Of a DNA stretch of 64,000 nt, positions 12,222-56,217 are shown piece by piece. A program made the translations under genes and the position numbers. The DNA is from Bolinopsis microptera. Lineage: Eukaryota; Ctenophora; Tentaculata; Lobata; Bolinopsidae. The first letter of the stretch is position 1. Every line of letters begins with the position of its first letter. A model generated the notes under the pieces. The model ran no database searches. It had not been told where the DNA came from and saw only the letters and a list, made by a program, of their open reading frames with translations. The stretch lies in the NCBI RefSeq assembly GCF_026151205.1, contig NC_087076.1, positions 7,600,902-7,664,901 of the forward strand, read 5' to 3'.

Positions 12222-15200
12222 TCAGCAGTAGTCTGTCAGCTTGTAGTGCTCATCGTCAACAGTTGAATAGATGTGGCCTTCGTTGCTCAGAAAGTCAATA
12301 GCACTCCGAATCTGAGAGGAATCAGGTGAAGTAATTATTATAATTATTGAGGAATATATCCAAATTTGTTATTGGACTTTAAAGGTAAAAAGGATGTTTC
12401 AGTTCATTCTCTTATATGTATTTTATCATAAATTGGAGTGCGTTTCAGGTGCGTTCATCCTAAATTAATTTGTTAAATACACAATATGTTTATAAGTTAA
12501 CAGCTGCACGCCCTACCTGAGTGACTGAGAGGTGGCTTGTTATCTTAGACATCTCCATCACGCTCATCCCTATATCCGAGGACGACTTCTTCAGTGCGTC
12601 AAACACCTGTCAAATAGTAATTTGATTTAGATATCTTATATATATATATATGCAATTATCCATTGATCTAAATTTCTCCTGGTTTTTAAAAATTTTATTT
12701 TACTTAATTTTTTTAAATTGTATTTTAAATATACAACCAAAGCCCTCTCCCAAAATCCAACCCCATGATGATAAGTTCTAGCTACGTTACTGAACTGCCT
12801 TTCTTCGTTCAACATTGAAACATGTATTTTTCGATTCGATCAAGTTTGATATGTTCAACCGAATTGACGCAATACTATTAACAATAGACACCTTCAAACG
12901 TTATGCCCAAAAATCAATTTTCGATCAAACGGCAATTATATTAAGTAAGTTAGAGAACAGAAGTGCTATTCTGATCAGGCACGTAGCCAGGGGGGGGGGG
13001 GGGGCTAGGGAGAAGTGCTATTCTGATCAGGCACGTAGCCAGGGGGGGGGGGGGGCTAGGGAGAAGTGCTATTCTGATCAGGCACGTAGCCAGGGGGGGG
13101 GGGGGGAGCTAGGGAGAAGTGCTATTCCGAGAGACTATTTATTACATACCGACTGTTGAGCTGGCCCAAGTCCAGATGTTGAGTCGTTTCCGTTGGAGTG
13201 AGAGTTTCCATTTGTAAAGGTCCCGTTGGCAGCACCAGCCATACCTGAAATATAATAAACTTAATAGGGGTCCGTAAATTTGAACACGAAACTCAGAAGT
13301 GTTCATGTAACAACATGATCTGAGAATGATTCATATTTAAGGAATTCGCCTTGGTTCGTTGGTCGTTTTCAAATGGGTAATCTAGCCTTCAGAATCGAAT
13401 ATGCACGAGTCTACTTCGAACTTGAAGATGGGCTTGTTTTACTAATTACTAATTACTAATTACTAGTTACCAGTTACTAATTACTTATTACTAATTACTA
13501 ATCACGTAATTCATACCTAAGTGTAGTTTGATGCGCATGCGTTATTTCACATTATATTTAGGATCAAGTTACGGATCATTTATTATTTAAATACTTCTTT
13601 CAAGTAAAATAATTGCTTCTTATAAGAGTTACAGTTTTTAGAAATAACTCTTATATGCATGTTATATGTATATTGAGTTAGCTATAGGGGGGGGGGGGTG
13701 TCATGTCCGTCTATGTCCGCCTATGTCCTGTCCTTTTTGGATTCTATGAGACAAAAAGGACACGGACGGACATTGGCGGACTCAGACGGACATTGGCGGA
13801 CCCGGACGGACATTGGCGGACTTGGATGGACATTGGTGGACATTAGCGGACATTGGTGGACATTAGCGGACAAACATTTTGAGGACTGAAGAGTACTGAA
13901 GAGTACTGAAGAGTACTGAGGAGGATGGCTGAGAAGGATGGCTGAGGAGGATGGCTGAGGAGGATGACTGAGGAGGATGACTGAGGAGGATAACTGAGAG
14001 GGAGGAGAAGGATCAGGAAGACCCAGGAGGAGGAGGACCCAGAAGGAGGAGGACCCAGAAGGAGGACCTAGGAGGAGGAGGAGGAGAACTGAGGAGGAGG
14101 AGGACTCAGGAGGAGGACTGAGGAGGATGGCTGAGGAGGATGGCTGAGGAGGATGACTGAGAGGGAGGAGGAGGAGGAAGAGGAGAAAGAGGACTGAGGA
14201 GGAGAAGGAGGACCCAGGAGGAGGAGGACCCAGGAGGAGGACGACCAAGGAGGAGGACCCAGGAAAAGGCCCCAGGAGGAGGAGGCGGACTGGGGAGGAG
14301 GAGAACTGTTGAGGACTGATGAGGAGGACTGAGGACGAGGAGGAGAAGTAGGAGGAGGACTGAGGAGGGGAGGAGGAAGAGGACTGGGGAGGATCAGGAA
14401 GACCCAGGAGGACCCAGGAGGAGGAGGAGGAGGATGACCCAGGAGGAGGAGGAGGACTGAGGAAGACTGAGGAGGAGGACTGACGATGACTGAGAAGGAG
14501 GAGGACTGAGGAGTACTGAGGAGGATGGCTGAGGAGGATGGCTGGGGAGGATGGCTGAGGAGGATAACTGAGGAGGATGACTGAGAGGGAGGAGGTGGAG
14601 GAAGAGGAGAAAGAGGACTGAGGAGGAGAAGGAGGACCCAGGAGGAGGAGGACCCAGGAGGAGGACGACCAAGGAGGAGGACCCAGGAAAAGGCCCCAGG
14701 AGGAGGAGGCGGACTGGGGAGGAGGAGAACTGTTGAGGACTGATGAGGAGGACTGAGGACGAGGAGGAGAAGTAGGAGGAGAACTGTTGAGGACTGAGGA
14801 GGAGGACTGACGATGACTGAGAAGGAGGAGGACTGAGGAGTACTGAGGAGGATGGCTGAGGAGGATGGCTGGGGAGGATGGCTGAGGAGGATAACTGAGG
14901 AGGATGACTGAGAGGGAGGAGGTGGAGGACTCAGGAGGAGGACTCAGAAGGAAGAGGAGGAGAACTCAGGAGGAGGACTCAGGAGGAGGACTTAGGAGAA
15001 ATGAGAAGGAGGACTGAGGAGAACTGAGGAGGAGGAGGAGGAGGAGGACTGAATAGGAGGAGGAGAAGGAGGGGGACTGGGAGAGGACTGGGGAAGAGGA
15101 GGACTGATGAGAAGGATGAGGAGGAGGACCCAGGAGGAGGAGGACTAGGGACCGAGGAGGAAGAGGAGGAGGATGAAGAGGAGGAGGAGGACCCAGGAGG

Positions 15201-18200
15201 AGGAGGACTGAGGAGGAGGACTGAGGAGGACTGAGGAGGATGGCTGAGGAGGATGACTGAGAGGGAAGAGGAGGAGGAGGAGGAGGACTCAGGAGGAGGA
15301 GGAGGACTGAGGAGGACTGATAAGGAGGAGGAGGAGGAGGAGGACTGAATAGGAGGAGGAGGAGGGGGACTGGGGGAGGACTGAGGAGGAGGATGGAGGA
15401 CTGAGGAGAAGGATGAGGAGGAGGACTGAGGAGGACTGAGTATTGAGGAGGAAGAGGAGGAGGATGAAGAGGAGGAGGAGGACCCAGGAGGAGGACCCAG
15501 GAGGAGGACTCAGGAGGAGGAGGAGGACTGGGGAGGACTGAGGAGAAGGACTGTTGAGGACTGATGAGGAGGACTGAGGACGAGGAGGAGGAGTAGGAGG
15601 AGGACTGAGGAGGGGAGGAGGAAAAGGACTGAGGAAGATCAGGAAGACCCAGGGGGAGGAGGAGGAAGAGTAGGAGGAGGAAGCATCTAAATGTTATTTC
15701 CATTTTTGTCCGTTTTTGTCCATTTTTGTCCGTTTTTGTCCGCTCTATTTTTTGTCCGTTTTGAAAATATAGGGTTCCGAACGGACAAAAAACATGATCC
15801 CCCTATAACAGCAAAAATTGAACATTTTATTTAGCAATTTAGGTGTCTATTAATGTCCGCCCATGTCCGCCTATGTCCGCCTATGTCCGTCTATGTCCGC
15901 CTATGTCCGCCTATGTCCGTCTATGTCCGCCTATGTCCGTCTATGTCCGCCTATGTCCGCCTATGTCCGCCTATGTCCTGTCCTTTTTGGATTCTATGAG
16001 ACAAGCGGACATAGACGGACGTGACACCCCCCCCCCCGCTATAGATATTAGATACACATTCTGTATGTCAACTAATACCTAGCTCTTCTCATCCATTCAT
16101 TGCAAATAGTTTGATTAGATACAGACTGTCTTATGGTCGGATTTTTAAATCGTTTGCATCTTTCAGGCTTTATCAGGAATTTTAATTAAACTAATATTCG
16201 TAAATTACACACGCACACACGCACACACACATTTATTGAGATTATAGATGTGGATTCTCTTGGGGAAGTGAGGCATATTTGTTTACTTTAAAGGGTTAGG
16301 TTCTGTTCAGCACAAGAAAGAGGTGATGCACATTTTGTATTATGGAACGCTTGTAACGCTTGTAACTCCCTCTTGTTACCCCCTTTGGAGGTTCAGATTT
16401 ATTTTCTGAACGAAAGCTTGAAAATAACCGAAAAATCGACCTTGTTAATGTCATTTCAAAATTGCACGAGAAATCGATTTAACCAAGTTTCAGAACCTAT
16501 AAACATTTCCTCATCCCTCAAAATTGATGTTTTATAGTTAATACGAGCAACAATTAGCAACATATTTTGAACCTTCGGTTCAACTTAGGGGGTTAAAATA
16601 GAGCTGAGTTGTGTGGTAGACAAACTGAAACAGAAGATCAAGGCAATCGTCACCTTAACTGATCGAACAGGTACCAGCACGATTTTCAGAGTAAACTCTA
16701 GATCGATATGTTTGTTACAATATCTCAATATCAAATATGTTTATTGTAAGAGCTATTCAACTCATGATTTTTTTTCTGACCTAATTATTTGACATCATAA
16801 CCCTAATGCTCTAATGGGTTATCACCCAGGTCCCAGACTAACTAGCAGCTCCAATTCAACAATACTACTATACTGTATAGTGTATCAAGCTATCAAGGAT
16901 GCGCAGCTGTTTGAAGACAAGCTGGTTGACCACTTAATCCAAGTTTTCAAGGCCACAGCACACTTTCTACACATTACTATTTTTGTAGGATTATCTTCCT
17001 CGATGCTGCAGTAGTTTATAGTTTTAAAACCTAGCTGTGCAAGGATCATTGTGAACCTCGGATGGAAATTTCACATAATATTAACTCTTTAAAACATGCT
17101 CGAGATATTATGGTGATGGGGAAGTGCAGAGGTGTACTACAGCTATTGTAAGAATAACGTTATTGATTTTATTATGGCAAGGTGAAATCTTAATGAAATA
17201 AGATCGTGAGTAAAAAACTGTATTTTTTCAATGATAAAAATGATGCCTAACAAACTATGTATTAAAATAAATCGCTTTTCTTGCTGAACGGTAAATTCCA
17301 TATTTCACGAAGCAAAGAGTTGACCGTGATATTCATAAAAGGCTTCGTCTGATATTAGTACCCAAAAGCGAAAGTGCAGCTGTTGCAATGTGTCTTTCGT
17401 GAGTAACTACCCTGATAATTATATTATATTTTCTGGGGCGTCTGTCATCGCTGCCTGGCGTCATTTGCACAACTTCACTGCAATGTGTCAACGCTATGTG
17501 CTTATCTCCTTGAAGAGGACTCTTGAAATCCTTCAGATAGTCGAATATTACAGGAACAAATAGGATTCTGAAGGTCTAACATTATGTTCATAGTAACTGA
17601 CCAAAACAACAGTCAGATAACTGGTATCACCAGAAATCTTACGTTAACATGTTTACAAACCCATACTCAATTCTTATCCTACCAAAATTCTTACCCCAGC
17701 CCCACCTAAGTTAACCTTTATAAAGTGCCCACTTTGCAACCTTTTCATTATTCTTTGTGACGTTATTTCTTTAAATTTTACTTCAGCTAATAACACCAAT
17801 TATTGTTGTTCTTGGACTTTACGTTGTTAAGCTGCAAGGCAGCAGGGTCATCTATGAAAACCACTATTTTTCTTTTACTTCGGACAACCATGGCCGGCAC
17901 CAGCACTTACAGGAACCCGCATACTATTTTGATATACAGGGTGGGCCAAAAGTCAGTACCCATACGTTATTTGACGTAATTCTTTCTGGTACCATTTTTT
18001 TTAATCAAGGCTCATTTTCGCATAAATTTGATAGTTTAGATAGTCGGATCGAGCCAAAATTTATTAAATTGTGTTTGGCCATTCGAATTACGTTTGTCCT
18101 GAAAAAATGAGAGTTGTAGCTTCTCAGATGACCGATATACGAAGCATAACGAGTTTAGTCATTACGTGTGATCAGGTGATTGGCTTACCTAATCACGTGA

Positions 18201-21200
18201 TAAGGTGACCCCGTTAACCACCCCGTTAAACATTATGGGAATCGTTAAGGCTGACCAATTAAGGTGTCGTTTCACGGTGTCACATAATCACCCAGTCAAT
18301 TTTGTTAACGTTATACACAAAATGCTTGATAACTTCATCATTTCAAATCCGTTTCACATCATTCTTTTAGATCAGATGCAACATTTAATAATCTACCGTC
18401 TCTGAAAAAATTAGGCGTCCAGCATGTTCAGAAAAAACAATAAAGGTGTTTCATATTGAATGGGTGTGGTCTAAAATATTCGAATCTTCAAATTTTGGCG
18501 ACGGAATCCTCGAACAAGTAGGTACAGTATGCCATCTGCAAAGCAACAACTCTCAAATATAAAACACAGCGGAGGTATAAGACCCAACGTATGGGTACTG
18601 ACTTTTGGCCCACCCTGTATATTATTTCTTTTTACTTGGTTATCTCTTAGGTCGTTACCAACCCGCTGTATTTGTTTTTGTAATCAAATAGTTACCAAAA
18701 CGTTTGTAAAAACGTTGTAACGTCTAAGTTTCAATTATGATTTGCATTCTTACTTCTCAGCTATGTTTGAGCATAATAAGGAAATACAATATAGACGTTA
18801 AGGTCGACATTTTGAGAACATGGCATTTAATTTTTGAGCAGATTTAAGTTTTAAGTAGGATAATAACAATTGGGTGGGATTGATTAAAGTAACCCAGAAT
18901 CACAGGCACGTCAGTACTATCTATAAACTATTATAAGCTCGGCAATCTTTCGTGAGTAACTACCCTGATAATTATATTATATTTTCTGGGGCGTCTGTCA
19001 TCGCTGCTTGGCGTCATTTGCACAACTTCACTATAACTAAAGAGATTGTACAGTTGTAATAATACATTGAGTATCTTGTGGGGCGTCAGGCGTGGACACA
19101 TTATCAATTAATAGACACAGTTATTGTAATGAAAATAAACTCAGTGTTTGAGAGTTAAAAGCAGTTCACAATAGACTTACTTACATTTTAAATGGCTTAC
19201 ATGTTTACCAGCAAACATCACGATATCTTACTTAATAGACTGAAGTCTTTAAAGTATTAAAATATAAATGTCAAAATAGCACAATTGCATAGTCATTACT
19301 TAGTATTTAATTTTGCTTTTGGGCGAGAGCTGCTACGTGACGTGCGTTACAGGTTATATAGCCAGGTTTTAGCAGTTCTTAAACACTGACGATTGCGTTG
19401 GCATGAACCGTTTAGTTTGCTAACCCATTTAATTTTGCTTTTGGGCGAGAGGAAGTAACTTACTCCTTCCGCAACACATCCTGAGTTCATATGTAATTCG
19501 ATAGTTTTATCATTATAGGCGGGGTTTGGCTGTTGATATGATCGACAATTCTAGTACTTCCCTGCTACTAGTACTTCTCAACACCAGTATTTGAGCTTAT
19601 AATAGTTTATAAATAGTACTCAGTAACACAGTACTTAAAAGTTTTAATAGTTGTTGTTGGTATTTGTAACATAATTTTGTAGGCCTAAATCCTAATCATC
19701 TAATTACCTTGTCGTTATAAAACATTAATTTGAACAGAAACTTAGGACCTTAACCAATCAACCCCTCAGCTATGAACAAAGACCTCTTCTTTCTCACCAT
19801 TGTCGTAGCTCACCTTATCTTGGTTCAAACTTCTCCTAAAGATGGACAGAAGTTATCTGACTACTTGTGGGAGCAAACAGCTGAATACCAGCAACAAGCC
19901 CTGAACTCTAGTCTGATATACGGAATGATGGAGAGATGCCTGGACCCATCTGAGTTTGGAGGCTACATGATGGATGATACTCTCTACTGTTACGAGAATT
20001 CGTTGATTCTCAAGAAAGCCGGGGATCGTTCCAATGACAACGCTACGCTCAAAGAGTTCATGGAGTCCAAGGCTGATAGTTGGGAAGAATACTGGGAGTG
20101 GCTGAAGGACATTTGGCATGTTGAGAATGCTGGGGGTATTAAGATGGGAGAAGCCGGTCAAGCGTACGTGGATCACATCAGAAATGTGTCTGAGAATGAA
20201 AGTCCTGTGTATACCATCCTGGCGCTGACACCCTGTGCCAAGCTATGGCCTTGGTTAGGCAAACAGATCGGATCTGGAAGCAACGATTTCGGAGTTTACA
20301 CTTCTTGGGTGGAGGAGAATCTTGTCCCAACCAGTACCGGATACATGGAATACCAAGATCAAGTGGAATGGGCTTACGAGGCAGGAGTAGTCACAGCTGA
20401 GAAGGCTCTGGAAGTTTTCACCGCCAGTATCCAAAATGAGGTTAACTTCTTCAACTCTGTCGCGAGATGCCAGCCGGCTGCAGCTGACTCCAGTGCTTTA
20501 CCTTGGAGTGGAACTATCTTGTTCACCCTTTTCTTCGCTACCGTTGGAATGATGATTGATCATTAGAATTCAGAATTTCAATGTTACATATTATTTCTTT
20601 TTACTTGGTTGTCTCTTATGTCGGAACCAACCCGCTGTATTTGTTTTTGTAATCAAATAGTTACCAAAACGTTTGTAAAAACGTTGTAACGTCTTAGTTT
20701 CAATTATTATTTGCATTCTAAGTACCTAAGTGCAGTGTGATGCGCATGCGTTATTTTTACTTATGTTTTGAGTTAATAAACTATGATGATTGTATATGAA
20801 TTTTACTTGATAGAGTGCTTATCTTAAAATTAAATGTTTTTACAGGCTCTAATGATGTAGTTTTACAAAGATTTCAAGCCTTACGTTGTGTGTTTCCCTT
20901 CGTGTCCAAAAGCATTATTATATTATAGTTAGGATCAAGTTACGGATCATTTATTATTTAAATACTTCTTTCAATAGTCCGAGACGAAAAGGAAACTCGT
21001 TAGCTTTTTGTGTTAAAAGCGATTTCTCGGCGGTTATCACTTCTCTAGATGATGCTTTAAAAATTTGGCCACTATTGCATTTTTGTAATAAATGCAATAG
21101 GGGCGTTTTCGGCCACACCCTTTTTTAGGGTTTCGCGGTCTCTCGAATTTTTGTATTTCAGCCCAGAAACGTCGTAGAGATTATTCCGATACACCAAAAT

Positions 21201-24200
21201 ATGCCTAATAGCCATATTTATATACAACTTATGAAGCAATATATACCTTATACGGGTAAACCGCCCCTAAAATGTCACCCACCCCTAAAACGCCACTCTT
21301 GATTGATTGGATCCCATCTTCTTAGAAAGTATCTTACCTAATCATTTGTAACTCCTAAACATAAAAAAATATCATTCAGACCCTGCTACATCCTGAAATT
21401 GAATCTAAATGATGCCATAAGGGCATTTTTTTTCACTTTGTACGAATTTTTTACTTTTGAAAAAAAGCGCACAATTTTATAACTCTGGAATTCATTAATA
21501 TTAACTCGGTTTTGGTCTAGGATAGTGATATTTACATATTTTAGCAACTTTGTACATATGACTGGAGATATGGAAAGTTATACATTACTCAATATTACTA
21601 CCCTCCCCTAAAATGTCACCTGGCCGCCCCCTAAAATGTCATTTTATCAGATTCTGGCTTTGAGACTACAAGCACCATAAAATGGAGGTACCAGCCTATT
21701 AAACATCATATTTAGCATCTAATGGTAATATTGGAAAGCTTTGGCAGCTCAAGGAATTAGTTTTATTTTATTAATTGCAATAAACATCCCCTAAAATGTA
21801 TAATTATCCCCCCTAAAATGTCATATTAACCTGATCAAATTACTCAGGCTTTTCCTAAGATGCAATGCATACTCACATTTCGTTAATAGTTGATGTTAAT
21901 AATTAACAAGTGCCAAAACAAGAGCTATTATCGCACACCATGCGAACAAAATACAAATTTGACATTTTAGGGGAGAAAAAATGACATTTTAGGGGGCATA
22001 TCATAGGTTAACCATAAACTAGTAAGTACCAAAAACCGTAGTTTTTGACATTCAATTTTGCTAAAAGCAGTCAAATCTAGTCTATAGAGATGGTCAGATC
22101 GATTACTGGGTTGGCTTAGTTAACTACAGGTCACTAAAATTGCCAAAATGCAGGATGATGTTAAAAATCCCAAAAAATGCAATTAAAACATGCAATTTGC
22201 ACAAGGTTAAAATCACATTGAATCCATTTCTTTTGTGCCAATTGTTAGTTTATAACTAGATAATCTAACTACAGGTGTAAATTTTGTTGACTGAGTTACT
22301 GTTTTGCCGGGAGCAGGACTATTGAGCGGTGGACTGTTGAGCGTAGGACTGTAGGTCGGTGAAGGTCGGAAGTAGGACTGTAGAGCGGTGTCAAGTCGCC
22401 AGGGTAGGACTCTAGAGCGGCCGCCCTTATAGATCTCACAACATGAGGACTTTAGAGCGGTACGATCCTAAAATGAGGACTGTAGAGCGGTGGACTGTTG
22501 AGCGGTGGACTGTAGACCGGCGAAGATCGGAAGTAGGACTGTAGAGCGGCCCTCCCTTATAGATCCCATAACATGAGGACTCTAGAGCGGTACCCTCCTA
22601 TAACATGTGGACTCTATAGCGGTTGAAAAGATTGAACACTCAACGAAGCTAAGTTATACATTGTAACTCGTGATTGATTATGGTCATGACATTCTAGGAT
22701 GAAAACTTTATTAAAGAGTCATTTAGACCTAGGATTAGGTCTAGGAGCTCGATGAATGATGGGACAACATCGTCGACTGAGAGGGGACACAGGGAAAGAC
22801 CCAGGGTGCTCCACCTTGATGATTGGGTATCTCTGCGTGTATCACTAAGAGTTGATAGAATAGCTGAGGACATACTCTGAAAGTTGCGTCCACGTACCAA
22901 GAAGGACTTCGCTGGAGTAGGAATCGAATTTGATATACGAAAACTGGATACTCCGTGATATTTATACCATACCTTCGAAATCCTAACAAGATATCGCACT
23001 GCGATGGGATCTGATCTGAATCAGTCCCGTCACCAGATTGATGAACATAAGATATCCTTAGTTGGCGCTAAAGCGTCACGCGATGCGATCCTCATTCCTA
23101 AATGATCTGCACGAACTTGATCGGTACTCTGCTTAGCGAAATCACATTGATAGTTGATACGAACAGTTCACTAAAATACCGAAGACACGTTTTACATTTT
23201 TGAGTAGCAGGGGAATATTTCAATCATTTGGAAGACGTTGAAACCGACCAATAATCTTAAATTAAGTTACACTATAATATAAGTAATGAAATATTTATAA
23301 TAAGTAAATGAAAATGTTCATTAACTCCATGACTCTTTAATAAAGTTATCATCCTAGAATGTCATAACCATAATCAATCACGAGTTACAATGTATAACTT
23401 AGCTTCGTTGAGTGTTCAATCTTCAAATTTTCAACCGCTATAGAGTCCTCATGTTATAGGAGGGTACCGCTCTAGAGTCCTCATGTTATGGGATCTATAA
23501 GGGAGGGCCGCTCTGCAGTCCTACTTCCGACCTTCACCGGCCTACAGTCCACCGCTCAACAGTCCACCGCTCTACAGTCCTCATTTTAGGATCGTACCGC
23601 TCTAAAGTCCTCATGTTGTGAGATCTATAAGGGCGGCCGCTCTAGAGTCCTACCCTGGCGATTTGACACCGCTCTACAGTCCTACTTCCGACCTTCACCG
23701 ACCTACAGTCCTACGCTCAACAGTCCTCCGCTCAATAGTCCTACAGCCGTTTTGCCGTAAGTTCTGGGTATTCAAAAAAAAGTCCCCAAAATGTCGCAAA
23801 AAGTAAATTGACTAAATTCCACCATTTTTTTTCAACAGAGAGAGAAATTCTGGTCGACACCTCTCAGAAATAGGTTATATTTGTCCCAGAAATGGTTAAA
23901 ATTAATAATTGAGCAACATTCTGAGTGCTACACAACCTGTTTTAGCTGACGTTTTAGGGGTGGTGCACGTGACATTTTAGGGGGTGATTACGGTTTTGAG
24001 GTACTTCCTTTAGTGAGTGAATGTTTTCAAGTAGCTTAATGTTTTAATAAGACAAAACAAATAGTACTAGTGACAAAAGATAAATCAGGCCTCCTGTACA
24101 TTTTGTAATTATCACACATATAGAGTTGAAATTTTAGGGGTGGTGTTTTAAAAGTGACTCCATTTCAACGTCAAAAAAATTGTACCTGATTTTATTTTCA

Positions 24201-27200
24201 AATTTCCAAATCTTCCTGGCAGGCTAGAAAAAGGTTTAAATATTATTCCTAGACACTTTAGAACCCTGTAAATTTAGCCCTAACTCGGCAGTCGGCAATC
24301 TGGGCCCAAAAAACAGGTGACGTTTTAGGGGCGGTTTACCCGTAATGCTTAATTTCGGAAATGTGGCTGAAAAACGGATTTTTACCGCGCGAACAATGAC
24401 AATACTCACATTGTGGGCTATTAGACTGTTAACTAGAAAGGTCCTAAAGACTCATGTGCAATATAGCACAACGGAGTAGACTTATTTACGAACACTTTAG
24501 TGAACGTTATGTAAACGCTGTGATCTATTATTCGTTATGTTAACGTTGTGATCTATTATTCGTAAATCGTAATGTTAACGGTGTGATCTATTATTCGTTA
24601 TGTTAACGCTGTGATCTATTATTCGTTATGTTAACGTTGTGATCTATTATTCGTTGGTTACAGTGTGATCTATTATTCGTTATGTTAACGTTGTGATCTA
24701 TTATTCGTAATGTTAACGGTGTGATCTATTATTCGTTATGTTAACGCTGTGATCTATTATTCGTTATGTTAACGGTGTGATCTATTATTCGTTATGTTAA
24801 CGGTGTGATCTATTATTCGTTATGTTAACGGTGTGATCTATTATTCGTTATGTTAACGGTGTGATCTATTATTCGTTATGTTAACGGTGTGATCTATTAT
24901 TCGTTATGTTAACGGTGTGATCTATTATTCGTAATGTTAACGGTGTGATCTATTATTCGTTATGTTAACGGTGAGATCTATTATTCGTTATGTTAACGGT
25001 GTGATCTATTATTCGTTGGTTACAGTGAGATGAGATTGTTAACCCGGAACTATGACGGAAGTAGGGTCAGATGATTAGAGTCAGCGAGGCATACAGGTTT
25101 ACTAAAGGAAACTACGTTAGGATAGCGGGAATCTCTCGAAAGTATGGTAAACTAGCTAGGGAAAATACTGGAAGCATTGACGCAGAGATAATGGACCTAA
25201 ATCTCCGTAAGGAGGCAAGTCATGTGACCAATCAAGAAGCATTGAGGCAGAACGAGTTATCATAGGGAAGTAGCCAAAGGTAATTGTGGGCCGCTCGGAA
25301 CTACGGCAATGACTAAAGGAGGGAAGACTTGATCGAGGGAAAAAGACAATTACCGGCGGTCAAATTGCCAAATTGACGATTGAACCAACATCTCACGAGG
25401 CTTCTGAGGGATTACGGGAGTTTCAGGCAAGGATGAGTGGAGAAAGAGAGTTCAATTTGAAACAGTTTTTTTTGTTTTCGCCAAGAATTTCTTGAAGGAC
25501 AATGAATTCAATGTGTTTAATTTCGATCTCATACCTCAAGGTTATAAATTAAACATTTAAAGTTTAACACCAACGATCGAAACATTCTTTATTTTAAAAC
25601 CGTATAGTTTTGGTCGTATAAATTATAATAAATTATAGTCGAATTTACCGTGCGATGCAATCCATCACTGCACCTTCTCAATGACTTCCATTCCTTAGTG
25701 GATGTACACATATTGTGATTTTGAAGAAAATTGTGGGCTTTGCGACACATTATATACTGTTCCTAATTAGGCCCCTTCCAGCCATTGCCACTGCGAATTT
25801 AGCCTAAATCCTGCCTACTTAATTGCGAAGTCTGCGATATTATCACTCCTGCCTAGTAATCTAATTTACCCAGTGCAGATCAGCAGTATATTACACTAAA
25901 TCCGCAGGTTTCCTCTTAATTTTTTATGGCAAAACCTGCCTCATTAACTAGTGATCCTGCATCAACAGCGCAGGTATTTGTTATTTGGCAGGATTTGCTA
26001 TTAACTGGGCAGGATTTGTTATAAAATTATCAATCCTTGCCGGATAGATGACAGCAGTGTTAAAGTTAAATCGGCAGGTTTTCTATTAACTTGGCAGGAT
26101 TTGTTATAAAATTATCAATCCTTGCCGGATAGATTACGGCAGTGATAAAGTTAAATCGGTAGGTTTTCCATTAACTTGGCAGGATTTGTTATAAAATTAT
26201 CAATCCATGCCAAATAGATTATGGCAGTGATAAAGTTAAATCGGCAGGTTTTCCATTAACTTGGGAGGATTTCTTATAAAATTATCAATCCATGACAAAT
26301 AGATCATGGCAGTGTTAAAGTTAAATCGGTAGGTTTTCTTTTACACTTGGCCCAAAAGTGACTACCCACACGCAACCTTTTAATAACTCACGTAATTCGT
26401 CTCCAAATTGCACCAAAATTTCAGAGATTATAGATATGGGTCAAACTTAGATTTCTTGAAAGTTTCGTAAGCCAACTCAAAATTTTTTGCACACATTTGG
26501 CTTGATAATTTAAAACCTATCCCAAAGTTTCAAGTTCATTGTTCAAAATTTGGCTGAGTTATGACCATTTCAAAATCCATCGGATACATGATCCGAGAAC
26601 TCAGTCAGTGATCTCTGCACTCAATCAGTGATCTCGTCACTCAATCTGATCAAGAGTAAGGCGTTAGCGTGTATTAATGAGGTTCATTAGGCTTTACCAA
26701 AAATACTGAGGAGATGACGACCTGATCATGATTGATCGGATACCGATAAAGACTTTGCTAGACAGGAAAACACCAAGTTTTAGGATAAATGAAATCAACT
26801 AATCAGCAGGGCTAACAAGCCCTGAAACGGTGACACCACCATTAATTCGTGTTATAGCGTTTTAGGTGCTGTCAGCTGTATAGGCCGGCCCATGTAAGCA
26901 GGCTGCAACCAATCAAGCGGTGCATGTGAGCCAAACAGGCCATATTTAACCATGAAGTGACGAGATCACTGACTGAGTGCTCGGATCACGTATCCGATGG
27001 ATTTTGAAATGGTTATAACTCAGCCAAATTTTGAACAATGAACTTGAAACTTTGGGAAAGGTTTTAAATTATCAAGCTGATAATTTTTTATCGAACTGAG
27101 TGTTTTTTTCAGCAGCATAAATCGCTCCCACACGGTAACAAAAGGTTGTAAATTATATTGTATAGTGTTATCTTTATCAGATGTACGTGTAACTTCATTT

Positions 27201-30200
27201 CCCAATATCTTCAGAATATTTTGTAACTTAAGCCATGGCATGATGAAATCACTGAAGATATGTGCCGTGAGTAGGTATGAAGCTATTAATAATTGCAGTG
27301 TCAGAACTCAGAAATCGGAGCCCTGGGCGTAAGGTTTGAGCTACTCAAGTGGAAATTATACCAACATTCCAGCCATAGAATTAAAACAGAATTTGATCAC
27401 AAAAACTGTAGCGTACTTTGAGTTTGAGATAAGAGCAGTAGAGCCCCTCCCAGATTGCAACATTGCCATGTAGAAGTAGTGACTGCACTAACAATATTTG
27501 TTACATGGGCTGACTCCAACTTACTTTTTATCTAGACAGACATCAATTTAATGGTGAAATTTAATGGTGAATAATGGCGAAGAATGGAGAATGATTTTTA
27601 AGGTGAATTGAGTATCCAAATTGTAAAATTTCACCATTTTACACGGCTAATGTAACAACATATTTTGAAGATATTAGGAAAGGATTTACACAGAATTTAC
27701 ACAGGATTTACACAGTATTAAAATTAAATTATAGATCCATTATGGACCGTCATAATTGTTTACAGAGATTAATGAAAACAATCATCTTTGCTTGAAGTCA
27801 GGGCCAGGGTTATCCTTAAATCTTAATTATGACTAATTCGCGAGGTTCTCACCAAATTGATAGTAAAATTGTTTAAGTTTCGCGCATTTGAATTACGTTG
27901 ACGCATATCTACGGTGAAGCTATTTCGCTCTTCGGGGCGAAAAATGAACTGAGTGTTTTTTAACAGCATACAACTATGATTCATTCATTTTTATTGATTG
28001 TAAGGAACGAACCTGTGACTAGCAGGGCTAACAAGCCCTGAAACCGTGACACCACCATTAATTCGTGTTAAGTGCTGTCAGTTGTATAGGCCGGCCCATA
28101 TAAGCAGGCTGCAACCAAACAAGCGGTGCATGTGAGCCAAACCGGCCATATTTAACCATGAAGTGACGAGATCACTGACTGAGTGCTCGGATCACGTATC
28201 CGATGGATTTTGAAATGGTCATAACTCAGCCATATTTTGGACAATGAACTTGAAACTTTGGGAAAGGTTTTAAATTATCAAGCCAAATGTGTGCAAAATC
28301 TAAGTTTGACCCATATCTATAATCTCTGAAATTTTGGTGCAATTTGGAGACGAATTACGTGAGTTATTAAAAGGTTGCGTGTGGGTAGTCACTTTTGGGC
28401 CACCCTGTATCTTATAGAAAGAAAGCTGCTTATTTAGTTTAAAATCTGCGATCACAAATGTTATAAGTTATTTGGAATTTTGCCTACTTGGCACCAAAAC
28501 TAAAAGTCAATGAAACCGAGCTGATTAGCGCAGTCAAGAAATTTATTATCGGAGGTAATAAAAAGCTGACAACCACTGATTGGTACTGAATCTCCATGCA
28601 ATTTCAACGATAATGCTACTCCTCCTCATGCTCCTCCTCCCCCAGCCCCCTCCGCTTGCTCCTGCTCCTGTTCTTGCTCCTCTTTCTGCTGCTCTTTCTG
28701 CTCCTGCTACTACTCCTCTTCCTCCTCCTGCTCATCCTCCCCCTGCTCCTCCTCCTCCTGCTCCTGAACCTCCTGCTGCTACTCCTCCACCTGCTCCTCC
28801 GACCTCCTGCTCCTGCTCCTGAACCTCCTGCTGCTACTCCTCCACCTGCTCCTCCGACCTCCTGCTCCTGCTCCTCCTCCTCCTGCTCCTGAACCTCCTG
28901 CTGCTACTCCTCCACATGCTCCTCCGACCTCCTGATCCTGCTCCCCTCCTCCTGCTCCTGCTCCTGAACCTCCTGCTGCTACTCCTCCACCTGCTCCTCC
29001 GACCTCCTGCTCCTGCTCCTCCTCCTCCTGCTCCTGAACCTCCTGCTGCTACTCCTCCACATGCTCCTCCGACCTCCTGATCCTGCTCCTCCTCCTGCTT
29101 CTCATGATCCTCCTGCTGCTACTCCTTCACATGCTCCTCCGACCTCCTGCTCCTGCTCCTCCTCCTTCTGCTCCTGAACCTCCTGCTGCTACTCCTCCTT
29201 CTGCTCCTGAACCTCCTGCTGCTACTCCTCCACATGCTCCTCCGACCTCCTGATCCTGCTCCTCCCCCTGCTTCTCATGATCCTCCTGCTGCTACTCCTC
29301 CACGTGCTCCTTCTGCTCCTCCTCCTCATGCTCCTGTTCTTCCTCACCCCCCACTTCCTCTTGCTCCTCCTCCTCCTCCTGCTCCTGTTCTTGCTCCTGT
29401 TCCTCCTCCTGTTCCTCCTCCCTCTCCTCTTGCTCCTCCTCCTCTTCCTCCTGCTTCTCCTTCTCCTCCTCCTCCAGCTCCTCCCCTCCTCTTGCTCTTG
29501 CTCCTCCTCCTCCTCCTCCTCCTCCTCCTCCTCCTCCTCTTCCTCTTCCTGCTCCTCCTCCTTTATCCTAATATAAGTAGTATATGGAAAATATGGAAAT
29601 CATAGCCTTCCGATTTCCGAATGTAGGTACGGACTAGGAACCGACCGGATATTCACGCGGCTGAATCCGGTTCCGGCCGGATATCCGAGTAGCATGAAAC
29701 GTGAACAAAATCAGTTTCCAGAAAAACTTTGAAAAGATTTTGACTTTACAAATCTTTGGTCAGAGTCATTCTCGATACGTACCTCTGAAGGCAGAGCTCC
29801 CGCTTCCGAGCTCGTATTGCAAAAGGAGGCCTGCCTTCCGAGATCGTATTACAAGGAGGAAGCCTCGAGTCCAAAATTGTACATCGAGGAGTTAGGAACG
29901 GACTTTAGAAAACCGAAAATAATATGTACTTCCTTCGGCTCATAATGATCAGGGTAGCATGAACCGTGGACAACCGTCAGCATCTCTTAACCCACTCGCC
30001 TGCTGACCTACAATTTAAAGTACGGACTAGTCACACTTTTCAATTCGACGGTGCAGGTGTCATACGTACTTTTAAATTTTTATTGAAAAGAACTGTCCAA
30101 AAAATCCAAACAATCGTTTTTGAAGTACGACTTCTCATCTAAGCTGCTGACGTAACCTTGTCACTTGTTAGCCAAGAACTTCCCTAAATCGTTACCACTA

Positions 30201-33200
30201 GACATAAACAATAAACATGACCATTACTACCAGACATTCATTAAATCCGCAGCATTCGACTTTATATATTTAACGGAAAACCTGCCTAAATAGAGCAAAC
30301 CTGCTGTGGTTAGGGGAAAGAATAGGCAGGTTTTGTGTTTATTTTTCAGTCTTTCCTTTATATTTAACAGAAAACCTGCCTAAATAGAGCAAACCTGCTG
30401 AGGGTAGGTGAAAGGTGAGGCAGGTATTGTCTATTGCAGGCTTTTCTATTAGTATTAATCAACAACTCAATAAAATAATCACGTGAAATACACCTCTGCG
30501 CGAATACGATAAATAGGCAGGATTGCGGTTAATTTTACGGGAATAATTTTAAAACTTTAAATTGATTATCAGCCTTAATGTAAAACCTGCCAAATTAGGT
30601 GGCAGGTGGCAATGGCTGGAAGGGGCCTCTAATTTGATGATTAAAGCCTTCCACGATTTAAAGCGATAAGAAAAGTTTACTTACTGTTTCATTTTAAGTA
30701 ATTTCTGGTACGAATTTCCTCACCAGTGCGGAATGCGGAATGGAGAATGCAATGAAGACAGATAAGTTTTAAACACGTCACACACTTTAAATTTAAGACG
30801 GTGCAACGCAAAGAATAATTAATCCGTCCAAAGACATAGTTTATCTCTGTTATTTGCGGATATAGGTGTAGTGGTCGTTACTTTTAACTAATGTACTGAA
30901 AAGTCGATTTTGATATTGGACTTCGTCCTGATTCTTTTTCTGTAAATGGGGAAATAACCAAAGTTATTATGTTGGTTCTAATGACCGATACGTCATTTTA
31001 ATCATCTGAATTCTGACCAATACGAATTTGAACTTTTGACTTTCAATTTCGGGGACAGCAATGATGTAATTTATACCAGATAACGATGGTACCACTACCG
31101 CTGCCTAGTGATGTCACCTACAGAGCTGAAGCTGTAAGCTAATTAGAAAAGTAACTGATCTAATTATTTTGCACCGTGGTTTTCATTCAGCCTTTGCAGT
31201 TTGCAGAACTCATTCTTCAATCTTTTGGCTTTAAATGGTTTCATCGGGTTCATTGCCACGTATTAGTATTTCAATAATTACACCACACCTGTCTGCAACA
31301 TGCAGTGAACGTATTTTGCGCAGATATTTTGCCTCTTTTTTATTGTTGCACTGAGAATACTCTGTTAACACGTCACTTACTCGTATACAATTAAACCTTG
31401 GACACCCTGTAGTATTAAAATATAATTAATTCTAACAAACCCAGGCATGATCAAGCAGCTTGGGTTCCTTATTTTGGTCCAGTTTCTCGTCGTTGACGCT
31501 TCTCCTAAAGATGGACAGAAGTTATCTGACTACTTGTGGGAGCAAACAGCTGCATACCAGCAACAAGCCCTGAACTCTAGTCTGATATACGGAATGAGGG
31601 CGAGATGCCTGGACCCATCTGAGTTTGGAGGCTACATGTTGGATGATACTCTCTACTGTTACGAGACTTCGTTGAGTCTCAAGAAAGCCGGGGATCGTTC
31701 CAATGACAACACTACGCTCAAAGAGCACATGGAGTCCACGGCTGATAGTTGGGAAGAATACTGGGAGTGGCTGAAGGACATTTGGCATGTTGAGAATGCT
31801 GGGGGTATTAAGATGGGAGAAGCCGGTCAAGCATACGTGGATCACATCAGAAATGTGTCTGAGCATGAAAGTCCTGTGTATACCATTCTGGCGCTGACAC
31901 CCTGTGCGAAGCTATGGCCTTGGTTAGGCAAACAGATCGGGTCTGGAAGCAACGATTTCGGAGTTTACACTTCTTGGGTGGAGGAAAATCTTGTCCCAAC
32001 CAGTACCGGATACATGGAATACCAAGACCATGTGGAATGGGCTTACGAGGCAGGAGTAGTCACAGCTGAGAAGGCTTTAGAGATATTCACCGCCAGTATC
32101 CAAAATGAGGTTAACTTCTTCAACTCAGTCGCGAGATGCCAGCCTCGACCACGCCGCGAATCTGGTATGTATTTTAATCTAATAATTGAATTTCTTTCTC
32201 GGTTCACAGAAATGTCGGATGGTTCTTTTTACCCTAAATGCCGACATGATAACGGATAAAATCTTAGATACATATCATATCTCATGACGGTACTGTTTAA
32301 AGAAACCTTGAGACATACAAGTGTGTAAGATTCAAAATTATAAGAATTTTAAAAATATACAGGAGTTGAAGTTTTAAACAACAGTCCGTTCGTGGATTTT
32401 TTCATTGATATAAATCAAGTTTTCCTATAAAAAGTCTTAAACAACAATCAGTTCGTGGATTTTTTCATTCATATGAATCAAGTTTTCCTATAAAAATATT
32501 ATGTCCCTTGTCCAGTCCATTAAGCTTATAGAGCCTCGCATTGCTCGTTCTTTGCTCTGTAAACGTCCGTTTGGTCTTCGCAGAAAGACTCGATATCATA
32601 AATCTTGAAATACCTCTGGAAGGCTTTAGAGAGATCCGGAGGGGCTGCTTCAGAGAAGAATATCCACACATTGTTGAACAGTTTTTTGTAAGCTTTCTTC
32701 ATTTCCTTGGTAACAAGGGTTTCCATGGCATGCTTGGTGCAACATGTGTAGAAAGCATCACTTATTTCGGCAGCGCAGCTAGGATCACATGTGGCCTTCC
32801 TTTCCATGTTCAGATATATACCCATCACTCTGTTAGCGATAGACGTTATCGACTCTGCCTCCAGGTCTATGGTACCCATTGCCGTGAGAAATTCTGTGAT
32901 TTCTTTTTCAACTCTTTTCAAGGAAAGGCAACCATCGTCTCCACTGAAGGTATTGTCGATTAACTTGCCCCCTAAAGAGTACATCTTTGAAGTTTCTAAG
33001 ACACAGTCTTTCCCGTTCTTTACGCCACAAACTGCATTTGTTAAACCATAAAGGATTGTTTTCAATGATTTCCAGTCAAGATTGTCCACAACATTATTGA
33101 ACATGCTCCCATCCAAACCTAGCATCTCAAACAGGATACCGTTGTAATTCTTGGCACAGCGAGCAGAAGCTCCAATCATTTCAGGACACTCACATAGAGC

Positions 33201-36200
33201 CGAGGATACAGGGACCACAATGTAGTCAATAATGGATTGCATCGATCCTTCGAGAGACTCGGCATCAATAAACTTTCTGAAGGAAGCAGGGCCATTATCC
33301 TTGAAGTGCTTGAACAGCTGACAAGGCTTCTTCTTGCACTCTCCCAGATCCCGGAATTCTTTACGGCAGTTGCAGCCAAACAGCCAGTTCTCACTGGAGT
33401 CACATTCCTGTGATTCCTGTGGGCAGATTTGGGATTCAAGCATACCAAGCATCATGTTGACCTCCGGGGTGAAGGACGAACCAAACTCGCTCAGGTATTC
33501 ACTTGCCTTGACCTTCGCCATACCCTCAGCATTAATCAGAGATACCACAAACGAATCGAGCACACTGGTGTCATCTGCACTAAATTTATATTCCTCACCA
33601 GGTTCCCCACCAGGTTCCCCACTGAGTTGCCCACTAAGTTCCCCAGTAGGTTCCTGAGCCACAGAAAGAACAATACAGGACAGAAGAACCACAATCTTCA
33701 TCCTGTTCATAATAGGAAGTTGCTATGTCAAGTGGGCATAAAAATCTTAGTTAAAATTTAGTAATGTTCACAGCTATAATTATATTATCATTGAATAGGA
33801 AAATGGGCATTCGTGAATCTTCCGATTCAGATCAAATTGAAATGAGGAGTTTAGATATCATAAAAACATGAGGCATAACCCGGCTGGATAGTGGAACTAA
33901 GGCCGAAAAGACGATCGGCTATTAATCAAAGAATAAATCACGTGACGGCAAACAAATCCTAATTAGCACTAGCCACTAGATCAACGTTAATATCCAGTCA
34001 GTGCACTTAAAAAAACCTTTATTAAAACTTCATGTCTAGCTATAAAATTTCTTCATCCACAGAAGAAGGGATATAAAATAAGGTGAGGTATTAACTGGCA
34101 TGGTTATAAGAAAAATTCCAGCAATTAGATTAAAATATAATCACCATCAGCAGCAATTTGAACCAGGTCCAAATATTCAAGATAAGAGGCCAGAGGGCCT
34201 TGACCTGATGATCTTATTAAGGGTTAACCCCTTAAGTCTAAACCAACATGTTAATAAATTTATCACAAAATTATGTGCAGGGTTGTATGCTCAGTGCATA
34301 TTTGATAAGGTCCTATCACATTAACGTACCTGGTTATGACTAGTTATGACTTGTTATGACACATACACGGCCCTATGACTGTGGACGATAACGGTAAGAA
34401 TAAGGTACTGAGCTACACGTGCGTCACTAAATCAATTACTTAATTAGATAATTACTATCACCAAGTCCTGATATCAGCTAACCAATTAGTGATAAAATAA
34501 TAGGGACGCTGAGAGCTCACCAGGACAAGAATTCAAAATGTTCACTCATCTCTGAAAATCATAAAGAATAGGGGACTCGAACTCCATACCTAAACTTTTT
34601 TTCTTAACAAGGATGATCGGACCATAATTCAAAATTCAGCAATTAAAAGTTGTCTAAATAGCTCACATTTATCTGTTTCAGGGAACGATTGTCAAGGAGA
34701 AGCATGATAAATATGATCAATTGAATAGAGCGACGAATCAAGACAAATTTTCCTAAATTGTAGAATTAACTTTGCGTTTTTTTGTATTTTTAAAATCAAT
34801 TTGGGCTATTTTTGTTTGTAGTAAATCAAGTATCCTTGTAGCACATCAGTCAATCAGTCAGCTAATAATTGGCGCCTTCATGTCTACTTAAATGAGCTCA
34901 GTTACAGATAAATAATAATGTTCTCTGCAAAATAAAAAGTCTGCTAAAAACTCGTTTCTAAGCAGAAAAAAAATCACGATTTCAAGGAAGGAAGTTCTTT
35001 TCTTGAAAGAAATGAAAACCAAATCTTGTCTAGAATAAAACAAATTCTAACCTCCCGGAGCGGATAATCCCTTCTTCAACTTCAGATGAGATCTGACCAC
35101 CTCCAGGATATGATTGCTGATCTCGTTGTGGGACTCCAGGGGAGCAACCTTGAATGCGATCACATTTCGTTGGTCGTTGAGGGAGCGGAGGTGACCGTAC
35201 ACCCGAACATAGGTGTGGGTACGGGTCATATTGCTTGTATCCTCCTGGGTGATTAGTAAGTAATTAGTGAGTAATAAGTGAGTAATTAGTGAGTAATTAG
35301 TAACTAATTAGTAACTAATTAGTGAGTAATTAGTGTGTAATTAGTGTGTTATTAGTGAGTAATTAGTGAGTAATCAGTGAGTAATCAGTGAGTAATTAGT
35401 GATTAATTAGTGAGTAATTAGTGTGTTATTAGTAAGTAACTAGTGTGTAATAAGTGAGTAATTAGTGTGTAATTAGTGAGTAATTAGTGTGTTATTAGTA
35501 AGTAATTAGTGTGTTATTAGTGTGTAATAAGTGAGTAATTAGTGAGTAATTATTGAGTAATTAGTGAGTAATTAGTGAGTAATTAGTGAGTAATTAGTGA
35601 GCAATTAGTGTGTAATTAGTGAGTAATTAGTGAGTAATTAGTGAGTAATTAGTGAGTAATTAGTGTGTAATTAGTGTGTAATTAGTGAGTAATTAGTGAG
35701 TAATAAAAGATTGATGATGAACGGCCTCATTTCTAAGCATCTCCCTTGAAATGATACAAATACTTTACTGGTCGCCTAACTTATAAAAGGAAAGACGAGG
35801 CTGTCTCTATGCTAGTACATAACTGTAAAATAACGAACAAAATACATAAATGAACACAGAGAAACACCTAGCAGGAACCCACCTCTCCCTCCTGAATGAA
35901 CTTTCTCACACTAATAGGAGGTCCAGTGTAATCGTCTATCTTGTAGGTGATGCTGGTTGAAGCCTCTATAATGTCCCTTACCATACCTACAAACGTTACC
36001 TGAGGTACCATGCTTTAGTATATAATTCAGATAATCCTATTAGTCAGACAATTTCCGTGAGGTTCTCACATCTGATTTATACAGGGTGTTTAAGTAGTGG
36101 TGTAGTAGTGACCCAGATGTTATTCTTCGTAAGCCAAGTGTGAAGGAGTGATCTAGCTCTACTTTGCTAATAAATCTATTAGAATTGCCGTTTAAAACTG

Positions 36201-37009: not shown

Positions 37010-40000
37010 TCAGCTAGAATCAACAAATGTTTTAGGAATTTTATATTCATCTATTAAAAGTTTAGAAGCAAGTCTCCTGGCGTCACCCTGTACCAGAACA
37101 TTGGACTCCGTTCTCAGGCCAGGTACCACCGCCGCTGACGAAGACATCACGTGTTGAAGTTTTTGTGCTAGCTCCTTTGCTTCGATCCCAAACACCTCAA
37201 AGTTCGAAATGATGGTTACTTTTTTGTTTCCTGTTCTTTTTTCCACTTTAAACTGTATCGGGGGCAGGTCTCCCTTGACGGTAATGGGAAATTTGTCAGG
37301 AAGCGAGATGACGTAGCATTTTCCACAGTTTGATTCCACTTTCTGAATGACCTGGTTCCACTGGGCGGTGAGGTCACGTGTCTTTATGATTGTGGAAAGA
37401 AGGGGATCTAGTCGAACTAGTTTCTTGTTGTCAGGATCGGCTAGGTCGTGAGATTTTATGTAGGTAATCACGTTATCCCGCAAAGTTTTCCGTGACAGAA
37501 TATCACCTTTTTTGTGTCCTGAGATTATATTAGTTTTATTACTAGTTATTTCAAGATCAAGCTAGCATGTAGATTAATCAACTTGTACACTGAGCAGATT
37601 TCTTCAGATAAAATTAATCCTAATAGCCCAATATAAATCTGATATATTTTAAGTATATATCCTTACCATATAAGGAAAATAGTCGAGTCACGTGCGCATT
37701 GCACGTGAAAGCCTGAACAATAGCAATATTTTCTTCTTCCTCCACCTCCTCTTCTTCTTTTTCCAGCTTCTTTACTCCCCTTAAACTTGGGTGAGCAAAG
37801 TTGACTTCTGTTATCATCAAGACTCCTGAAACATTTTGAAAAAATTAAGATCAACAATATTTTTACCGATCATCGTCCAGAATCAGTTTACCTTACTCGG
37901 GATTATTACGACGGGTTTATTAACGACCGGTTAAAATATGGTTCGGGAAAAATATGGCGAAATTGCTCAAAACCCACCACATTTTCCTGGTCGCCATTTT
38001 ACCGGTGTCCAACCTTTCAATTTTAGATTCAAAAATTTTGTCTCAGATGTAAATGTCCTTATTAGAGATAAGCAAGTTTAGAAATTTTCGCATTGCTAAA
38101 ACTTGTGAAACAAGTCGAATTATCAATAATTGTTGAAAGTAGACAGAAATAATGACTCGTGGTTAATCAAACTAGATGGAAAATAATTTTTAACATTTGA
38201 AGCGTAACAACCAGATCGATATTAAGATAAAGGGAGAGCTGTTTAGTCTTCCAATAAGTTGTAATCATCTTCGTTATCTTCATCTGGATCATCCCTTTCA
38301 TCAGTTTTAATTAAGTCAAGTTTTAATTTAATTGTTACTTTTACTTTGAGTCCTATTTCATTATGTAGAGATAGTCAATACCTAAGAAATTAAAAATTGG
38401 CCGGGGGGGTACCAATGGCATAGAATGGAGACAAATGGCATAAAATTCATCAAATGGCATAGAAATTTCATGGCATAAATGGAAATTTTGTTTGGCCAAT
38501 TCTCCATTTATGCCAATTTATGCCATGAATTTAGGTCTTCATATTTGACCTTTAGGATGACTTTAAATTCGCAAATATTATTAGTACTTGAATAAGAGAC
38601 ATGTTTCATGCTTTATAACGCTTGGAATGATCTTTAAAGATTCATATGACAAATAAAGAAAATAGAAATGTATTATATCAAACATATACCAAACATTTGA
38701 CTATTCAAGAAAAGCAAATTCGAAAGTAGGACCCTAGAGCGGAGTCAAATCGCCAGGGTAGGACTCTAGAGCGGAACCCCCTTACCGGACCCATACTATG
38801 AGGACCCTAGTGCGGAGTCAAATCGCCAAGGTAGGATTCTAGAGCGGAACTCCCTTACCGGACCCATACTATGAAGACTCTAGAGCGGTACCCACATGCA
38901 CATTTTAGAGCGGTTAGAAATTTGAGAGTAAAGTTTGTTTTTAAGATTGAGCTATGTTTTTTAATCAATGATTAATAATAGTCGTCACATAATGATGATA
39001 GAATTGATACAACTTATTATACATTAATACTGCGAATCAAATATCTTAAAATACAGGGTGGGCCATAAGTCAGTACCCATACGTTGGCCTTTATAGCTCA
39101 GTCACTGAGTGCCCAATTTAAATACTTCTTTCTGGTATGACTTAGTACCACCACTGGTTCGAGGAATTTGTCAACTCGAAAAATATTCGCGTTCATTTTT
39201 TTCAAATGGAGGTTCATTTTCACATTTATTTGATAATTTGGATAGTCGGATCAAGCTAAATGTTATTGAATTGTGTTTGGCCATTCGAATTACGTTTGTC
39301 CTGAAAGAATTAGAACTGTACCTTCTCAGATGACCGAGATATGAAGCATAACGAGTTTATTCATTACGTGTGATCAGGTGATTGGTTTACCTAATTACGT
39401 GATAAGGTGCCCCCGTTAACTACCCCGTTAAACATTATGGGAATTGTTAAGGGTGCCCAATTAAGGTGTCGTGTCACGGTGTCACATAATCACCCAGTCA
39501 ATATTGTTAACGAGATACAGAAAATGCTTGATAACTTCGTCATTTCTAATCCGTTTTGCCTCATGTTTTTAGATCATATGCAACATTTGATAATATACCG
39601 TCTCTGAAAAAATTAGGCGTTCAGCATGTTCAGAGAAAACAATATAGGTGTTTTAATATTGAATGGGCGTGGTCTAAAATATTCGAATTTTTAAATTTTG
39701 ACGACGGAATCCTCGAACCAGTAAGTACAGTATGCCATCTGCAAAGCAACAGCTCTCAAATATAAAACACGGCGGAGCTATTAAGGCCAACGTATGGGTA
39801 CTGACTTTTGGCCCACCCTGTAGTTCACTCAGTTCCTCGACCATCACGTTCCTCAACATGTCAAGGTGGGAGAGTGAGACAATGTCATGATCGTCGTAGA
39901 CTTTTACTAAATGTGCCAGTCGGCTGTCCTTGGTACGCTGTGGAAACTCCCTGTACCCAATTCGTCATGAAGTAGTCAAGGAAGTCGTCGAAGCCAAGGT

Positions 40001-56071: not shown

Positions 56072-56217
56072 TGTTAATCTTATATACCATTTACAGGATG
56101 GCAGAAACTCCAGGAGGCTTTGTCTGACTTGATTTGTATTCCTCGTTTGAAGTTTATGTTTCTATCATCCACTAGTGTTACTGTCTCACTTTATTGAATT
56201 AAAAGTGATAGCAGGAA

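Follow-up and report, generated by a model that had tools for sequence, protein, structure and literature searches.

Three genes for TenA proteins sit within about 24.5 kb of one another in a stretch of 64,000 nucleotides from the genome of the lobate ctenophore Bolinopsis microptera (NC_087076.1, positions 7,600,902 to 7,664,901). This whole stretch is called the window, and positions below are counted from its first letter. I propose that the three genes encode secreted thiaminases of the TenA_C type, akin to BtTenA of Bacteroides thetaiotaomicron, and put the probability of this reading at roughly 0.6. A preliminary description of this DNA had named three TenA genes, and all three open frames are present, the third as a main exon plus a probable last exon that extends to 7816. 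Protein and DNA searches of the 264.65-Mb assembly (three of three scored candidates in each) find these copies and no other, a count valid for the assembly as it stands, with further copies possible in missing stretches. The genes and their parts are:

19772-20566, + strand: gene 1 (copy 1), a TenA gene of 264 amino acids in a frame without interruption; hydrophobic leader at about residues 1-20, TenA domain at about 25-233, then a C-terminal tail with a hydrophobic stretch resembling a glycosylphosphatidylinositol (GPI)-anchor signal
19830-20475, + strand: core of gene 1, 646 bp; identity to the gene 2 core, 96.3%
31447-32259, + strand: gene 2 (copy 2), a TenA gene of 270 amino acids; hydrophobic leader, TenA domain and a mostly hydrophilic tail
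31499-32144, + strand: core of gene 2, 646 bp; identity to the gene 1 core, 96.3%
8897 down to about 8192, - strand: main exon of gene 3 (copy 3), with hydrophobic leader and TenA domain, ending in a donor-like GA/GTAAGT
7850-7816, - strand: predicted last exon of gene 3, a candidate whose acceptor, TTTTTCAG, was picked by eye and is not among the acceptor-scan rows listed
8209-8835, - strand: core of gene 3; identity to the gene 1 core, 77%

The candidate last exon of gene 3 would contribute 11 hydrophilic residues, split codon included, and stops at the same coordinate, 7816, as the gene in the preliminary description. The last part of gene 2 contains a possible 45-nt intron (32165-32209), and the frame is kept whether it is spliced or not. 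In all three copies an AG is located 2-4 bases 5' of the start codon, which suits an intron in the 5' leader or else trans-splicing, a process that presumably occurs in ctenophores.

Family and active site

Judged by sequence, the three proteins are clearly TenA, with matches far above chance. When phmmer is run against the PDB sequences, BtTenA (2a2m) is the closest solved structure for each. The E values for copies 1, 2 and 3 (the order used for such triplets throughout) are 1.1e-21, 8.9e-20 and 4.9e-18, and the C-terminal part of NCBIfam NF011301 is matched at 1e-16, 6.3e-15 and 7.4e-13. The TenA-type domain claimed earlier is borne out by these matches. PDB matches with E below 0.01 are TenA-type without exception. 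Other TenA structures match weakly: 2qzc at 0.0014 from copy 3 alone and, with a four-sequence profile that includes BtTenA, 3ibx at 0.0028, 2gm7 at 0.0038 and Bacillus subtilis TenA (1yaf) at 0.025.

Stentz et al. (PMC10277260) describe a BtTenA-like sub-class that stands apart from both the usual TenA_C and the usual TenA_E proteins and is delimited by an E value of 1e-15 or less together with at least 50 identical residues. The ctenophore proteins fall within these limits, with E values taken from phmmer and a PDB-sized database rather than nr, and identities counted for copies 1 and 3: 54 residues (26%) and 51 residues (25%) over 204 columns, against a 198-aa segment of BtTenA. The active-site cysteine of the sub-class (B. 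subtilis Cys135, BtTenA Cys164) is there as C155 in copy 1, with equivalents in copies 2 and 3, and of the double glutamate only the one at Glu205 (BtTenA Glu229) is kept, as E223, with N222 (S in copy 3) and V224 for neighbours. Scans of a collection of genome contigs for bacterial relatives gave 22 pattern stretches by profile and 11 stretches with the BtTenA segment, none confirmed in either case; the latter scan missed BtTenA itself and so says little. A plasmid search with copy 1 found no match.

What the three copies have kept can be judged against B. subtilis TenA, in which the mutants D44A, Y47F, Y112F, C135A and E205A are impaired or inactive (PMC5623701). The first four of these residues align with D69, Y72, Y132 and C155 of copy 1 in a profile alignment to 1yaf, whose chain numbering is offset by 27 (chain D71 is D44 and chain C162 is C135, counted by hand). 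The fifth is reached by way of BtTenA, where Cys164 and Glu229 are the equivalents of Cys135 and Glu205 (PMC10277260): C155 corresponds to Cys164 and E223 to Glu229, BtTenA numbering being chain numbering minus 12. D69, Y72, Y132, C155 and E223 are identical across the three copies, five out of five, so that the catalytic residues are retained, as the earlier idea of retained chemistry would require. That idea had been built on an Asp, a Cys, a Tyr and a Glu. The Asp, Cys and Glu were the right ones, but the tyrosine, taken from a YT.W motif, was not: it is Y176, aligned to B. subtilis Y156, and the tyrosines tested by mutation align with Y72 and Y132.

Evolution and ends of the copies

Over its full length copy 2 is 83% identical to copy 1 and copy 3 is 64% identical to it, values that become 94% and 71% over the core. 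When 7-kb and 5-kb stretches around copies 1 and 2 are compared by blastn, nothing is found beyond the 646-bp block at 96.3%. Similarity between these copies ends near both boundaries of the mature domain, and leaders and tails in the same frame align poorly. The simplest account, going by these alignments, is gene conversion of a constrained core between older duplicates; recent copying of the core alone is a possible alternative. The genes are probably older tandem duplicates in which conversion has homogenised the catalytic core, their leaders and tails having diverged.

Copy 3 is more distant, with a synonymous divergence (dS) of about 1.1-1.2. Compared with copy 1, the 60-base windows at the start and the end of its core are 95% and 97% identical and the middle goes down to 48%; compared with copy 2, the end windows are 93% and 92% identical. 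Identical codons for the same residue occur in longer runs than 10,000 shuffles would lead one to expect, which suggests conversion at the ends of the core: between copies 1 and 3 the longest run has a P of 0.026 and the two longest jointly a P of 0.0018, and between copies 2 and 3 these values are 0.029 and 0.0049. Stronger constraint at those ends might produce the same picture.

Calculated from 210 codons, the ratio of nonsynonymous to synonymous divergence (dN/dS) comes to 0.29, 0.16 and 0.15 for the three pairs by NG86 and to 0.35, 0.17 and 0.17 by YN00, so the proteins have been maintained, with purifying selection on the core. The codon changes that separate copies 1 and 2 are not spread evenly. 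There are nine nonsynonymous and no synonymous changes up to residue 129 and four and ten, respectively, beyond it (Fisher P 0.0016, for a split picked after viewing the alignment and with residue 236, where the shared block is just about to end, counted among the four). At five of the nine changed sites in the first half, all three copies differ. The variable residues include 53, 67, 76, 79 and 96. It is too soon to speak of positive selection: nine nonsynonymous changes out of nine has a P of 0.07-0.14 under neutrality, only the contrast between the halves is significant, and diversification of the first half is only suggested by these codons.

The ends of the proteins bear on where they would act. 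The signal peptide named in the preliminary description finds its counterpart in a leader-like hydrophobic N-terminus in all three copies, the best 13-residue Kyte-Doolittle windows reaching 2.81, 2.35 and 1.93, a measure of hydrophobicity and not a signal-peptide prediction. N-glycosylation sequons by the strict pattern number 3, 3 and 1. In precursors of GPI-anchored proteins a spacer of small residues is followed by a hydrophobic stretch, and copy 1 has both at its C-terminus, where its second hydrophobic stretch scores 2.19. The tails of copies 2 and 3, when read through, score no higher than 1.06 and 0.79, and an acceptor scan for GPI-like last exons of these two copies gave some chance hydrophobic frames and no convincing hydrophobic tail. 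On this showing copy 1 may be tethered to the membrane and the other two soluble.

Proposed function and its rivals

The genes closely fit the description of a pair of zebrafish TenA-like genes, compared below, and their most likely function is the extracellular cleavage of thiamin. The leader would route the protein into the secretory pathway. The helical TenA domain would then bind the aminopyrimidine half of thiamin, with D69 directed to the amino group and with Y72 and probably W159 surrounding the pyrimidine ring. C155 would be the nucleophile that attacks the pyrimidine, partnered by E223 and Y132, the thiazole would leave, and the reaction would be completed either by water, which would make the enzyme a thiaminase II, or by an organic base, which would make it a thiaminase I like the zebrafish one. 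The analysis itself shows the family, the residues, the number of copies in the assembly, the constraint on them and their genomic surroundings. I infer not only the substrate, secretion, activity, type of enzyme (I or II) and GPI-like anchoring of copy 1 but also a role in the destruction or processing of extracellular thiamin, be it digestive, defensive or antimicrobial. Of the thiamin-pathway families searched for in the genome with Pfam, only an SLC19-type folate/thiamin carrier gives a clear match (C4, E 2.8e-27; three stretches over the cut-off among nine candidates).

Several observations weigh against this proposal. The Pfam profile TENA_THI-4 (PF03070), put forward in the preliminary description as a check, does match the three copies but at 19.7, 20.7 and 21.7 bits, slightly below a cut-off of 22 that is an annotation threshold and not a biological trait. 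Taken together with the NCBIfam profile salvage_TenA (TIGR04306), which gives 27.2, 24.8 and 22.6 bits (E 2.8e-6, 1.5e-5 and 7.2e-5) against a cut-off of 130, this shortfall does suit the BtTenA-like sub-class. In the pocket of B. subtilis TenA, of which I take Y163 to be a part, Y139 and Y163 align with W159 and N183 of copy 1; BtTenA carries the same W and N. Going by the numbering offset, I equate Y139 with P. furiosus Tyr132, a residue packed against the pyrimidine (PMC5623701). The AlphaFold models are of low mean confidence (pLDDT, the predicted local distance difference test, is 44.8 for the first model and 53.4 for the trimmed domain) because only three sequences were usable. In Foldseek, whose score combines 3Di and amino acids and is hence partly sequence, the first model has 2a2o as its best match (E 8.6e-8, TM 0.47), and all eight matches at E of 0.001 or less are TenA chains. 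The second model has no match at that level (the best is yeast THI20, at 0.14), and VIA-align 2 shows no TenA among the 24 rows listed of 26 chains with Z of at least 2, its best match having a Z of 3.1 and a root-mean-square deviation of 7.2 with 145 aligned. Structure comparison, the other check that had been put forward, gives TenA matches with the first, low-confidence model and none at E of 0.001 or less with the second. Both models are uninformative, and the claim regarding the fold rests on homology to solved TenA, which is strong and would imply a helical, haem-oxygenase-like fold. Finally, open-licence PubMed Central yielded no report of a ctenophore thiaminase or TenA, although the supplementary tables of PMC9839694, which list further invertebrates, might hold one, and a passage search of the main text of a paper on horizontal gene transfer in Mnemiopsis (PMC6005172) finds neither 'thiamin' nor 'TenA'.

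How else might these genes be explained? One view, unlikely but deserving of serious thought, is classical salvage: a secreted TenA that hydrolyses aminopyrimidines to hydroxymethylpyrimidine (HMP) for symbionts or other microbes, without destroying thiamin. The residues tested by mutation are the same in salvage TenA, and the salvage_TenA profile does match, if weakly, but with scores far under its cut-off. Salvage for the animal's own use meets the further difficulty that Pfam finds no match to ThiE (TMP-TENI) or ThiM (HK) in the genome, an absence that says little, because the control, thiamin pyrophosphokinase, was missed as well and PF03070 did not pick up the TenA genes themselves. The one genome match to PF08543 (27.6 bits, cut-off 27) appears by eye to be ribokinase-like. 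It is more doubtful that the proteins are extracellular binding or structural proteins with no enzymatic function, which keep TenA residues by descent. Such proteins could well have leaders and tails that differ among copies, and amino-acid changes concentrated, as in copies 1 and 2, in the first half; yet the five mutant-tested residues are kept in every copy, and dN/dS is 0.15-0.29.

The preliminary description had also allowed for a haem-related function. The fold is indeed common to haem oxygenases and diiron proteins (PMC5623701), and the Foldseek matches of the first, poor model do include haem oxygenases well down the ranking, starting at E 0.11. It is nonetheless highly improbable that the fold serves haem or diiron here, and of that earlier idea little is left: apart from the shared fold nothing speaks for it, the thiaminase set of Cys, Asp, Glu and Tyr is intact along with the residues of the thiamin pocket, Pfam gives no haem-oxygenase match at E up to 10, and the better PDB matches are, as noted, all TenA-type. 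Hardest of all to credit is that the genes are bacterial contaminants or were inserted from a bacterium very recently. The nearest solved relative is, to be sure, the bacterial BtTenA, but the three copies occupy some 24.5 kb on C5, a contig of chromosome scale with a length of at least 16.7 Mb, amongst eukaryotic neighbours, e.g. neurochondrin and a SUI1/SWIB protein. Their N-termini are leader-like, a splice-like AG directly precedes each ATG, and there are homologues in several other animal phyla (PMC10277260). That these TenA genes belong to a genuine animal genome, as first described, stands.

Genomic setting and known relatives

Other features were observed in the window:

32526-33722, - strand: Cys-rich frame of 398 amino acids with a leader-like start and no Pfam match at 0.001; some 270 bases separate its end from gene 2, which is on the opposite strand
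10897-11500 and 17394-19451: pieces of an inverted repeat that share mostly 92-95% identity and lie 5' of gene 3 and of gene 1; they may represent a mobile element
22320-22640 and 23410-23740: arrays, inverted with respect to each other and seen by eye, of a unit like GGACT(G/C)TAGAGCGG
38728-38888 and 40825-40982: units similar to GGACT(G/C)TAGAGCGG
13915-15681, 28619-29562 and 50283-52083: long low-complexity arrays, AGG- or CTC-rich, in which spurious open reading frames arise because more than one frame is open
44575-48807, - strand: single uninterrupted frame of 1410 amino acids, long for one animal exon, with a SpoU methylase domain at its end; presumably TARBP1-like
56212-60510, + strand: Copia-type retrotransposon frame of 1432 amino acids that matches reverse transcriptase (RVT_2) and integrase

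Elsewhere in the genome are clusters of ionotropic glutamate receptor genes (C12, 11.78-11.81 Mb, and C3, 15.86-15.94 Mb), those on C12 with long uninterrupted frames of 765-949 amino acids. A glutamate receptor from this genome has the ML032222a receptor of the ctenophore Mnemiopsis as its best PDB match, and a 123-aa piece of ML032222a finds 27 matching places in the genome (34 candidates scored), with 79% identity at the best of them, which supports the ctenophore assignment well; mitochondrial COX1 gave no match.

TenA in an animal had at first been presented as a surprise, which it is not. Work published in 2023 described genes of this kind from a number of animal groups, including fish, molluscs and cnidarians (PMC10277260, PMC9839694), and the BtTenA-like sub-class is reported from cnidaria, echinoderms, molluscs, lancelet and fish, ctenophores not being named in the portions available (PMC10277260). 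The ctenophore trio therefore mainly adds an animal group and details of how copies evolve. What is new is the phylum, the 96% core with dissimilar flanks, the clustering of amino-acid changes in the first half, and the possible membrane-anchor tail on copy 1. The ctenophore set would put the TenA family on a branch that split off very early among animals, three copies at one locus would make a compact system for testing function, and gelatinous plankton would become a candidate source of dietary thiaminase.

Three known systems invite comparison. One is B. subtilis TenA (thiaminase II, 1yaf), presumably a cytosolic salvage enzyme: D44, Y47, Y112 and C135 are kept in the ctenophore proteins, and E205 too by way of BtTenA Glu229, although the sequence score is marginal (E 0.025 with the profile). 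Another is BtTenA itself (BT_3146, PDB 2a2m/2a2o), the best solved match, which degrades thiamin (PMC10277260). With it the ctenophore proteins share 26% (copy 1) and 25% (copy 3) identity, the same Cys, Glu, Asp and Tyr, and the same W and N in place of B. subtilis Y139 and Y163. They differ from it in their leader-like N-terminus and eukaryotic host, in Cys56 and Cys233, which have no Cys counterpart, and in being longer around residues 200-208 and shorter near 192.

In zebrafish, two TenA-like genes form an adjacent direct repeat and are 64% identical, their signal sequences being less conserved, and one such protein, made in recombinant form, has proven thiaminase I activity (Richter et al. 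2023, PMC9839694). The ctenophore genes resemble these in being neighbouring paralogues and in conserving the Cys135 equivalent (PMC9839694). By description, the zebrafish genes have three exons, whereas the ctenophore domain lies in one open frame, and thiaminase I activity, proven in zebrafish, would be expected of the ctenophore proteins only by analogy.

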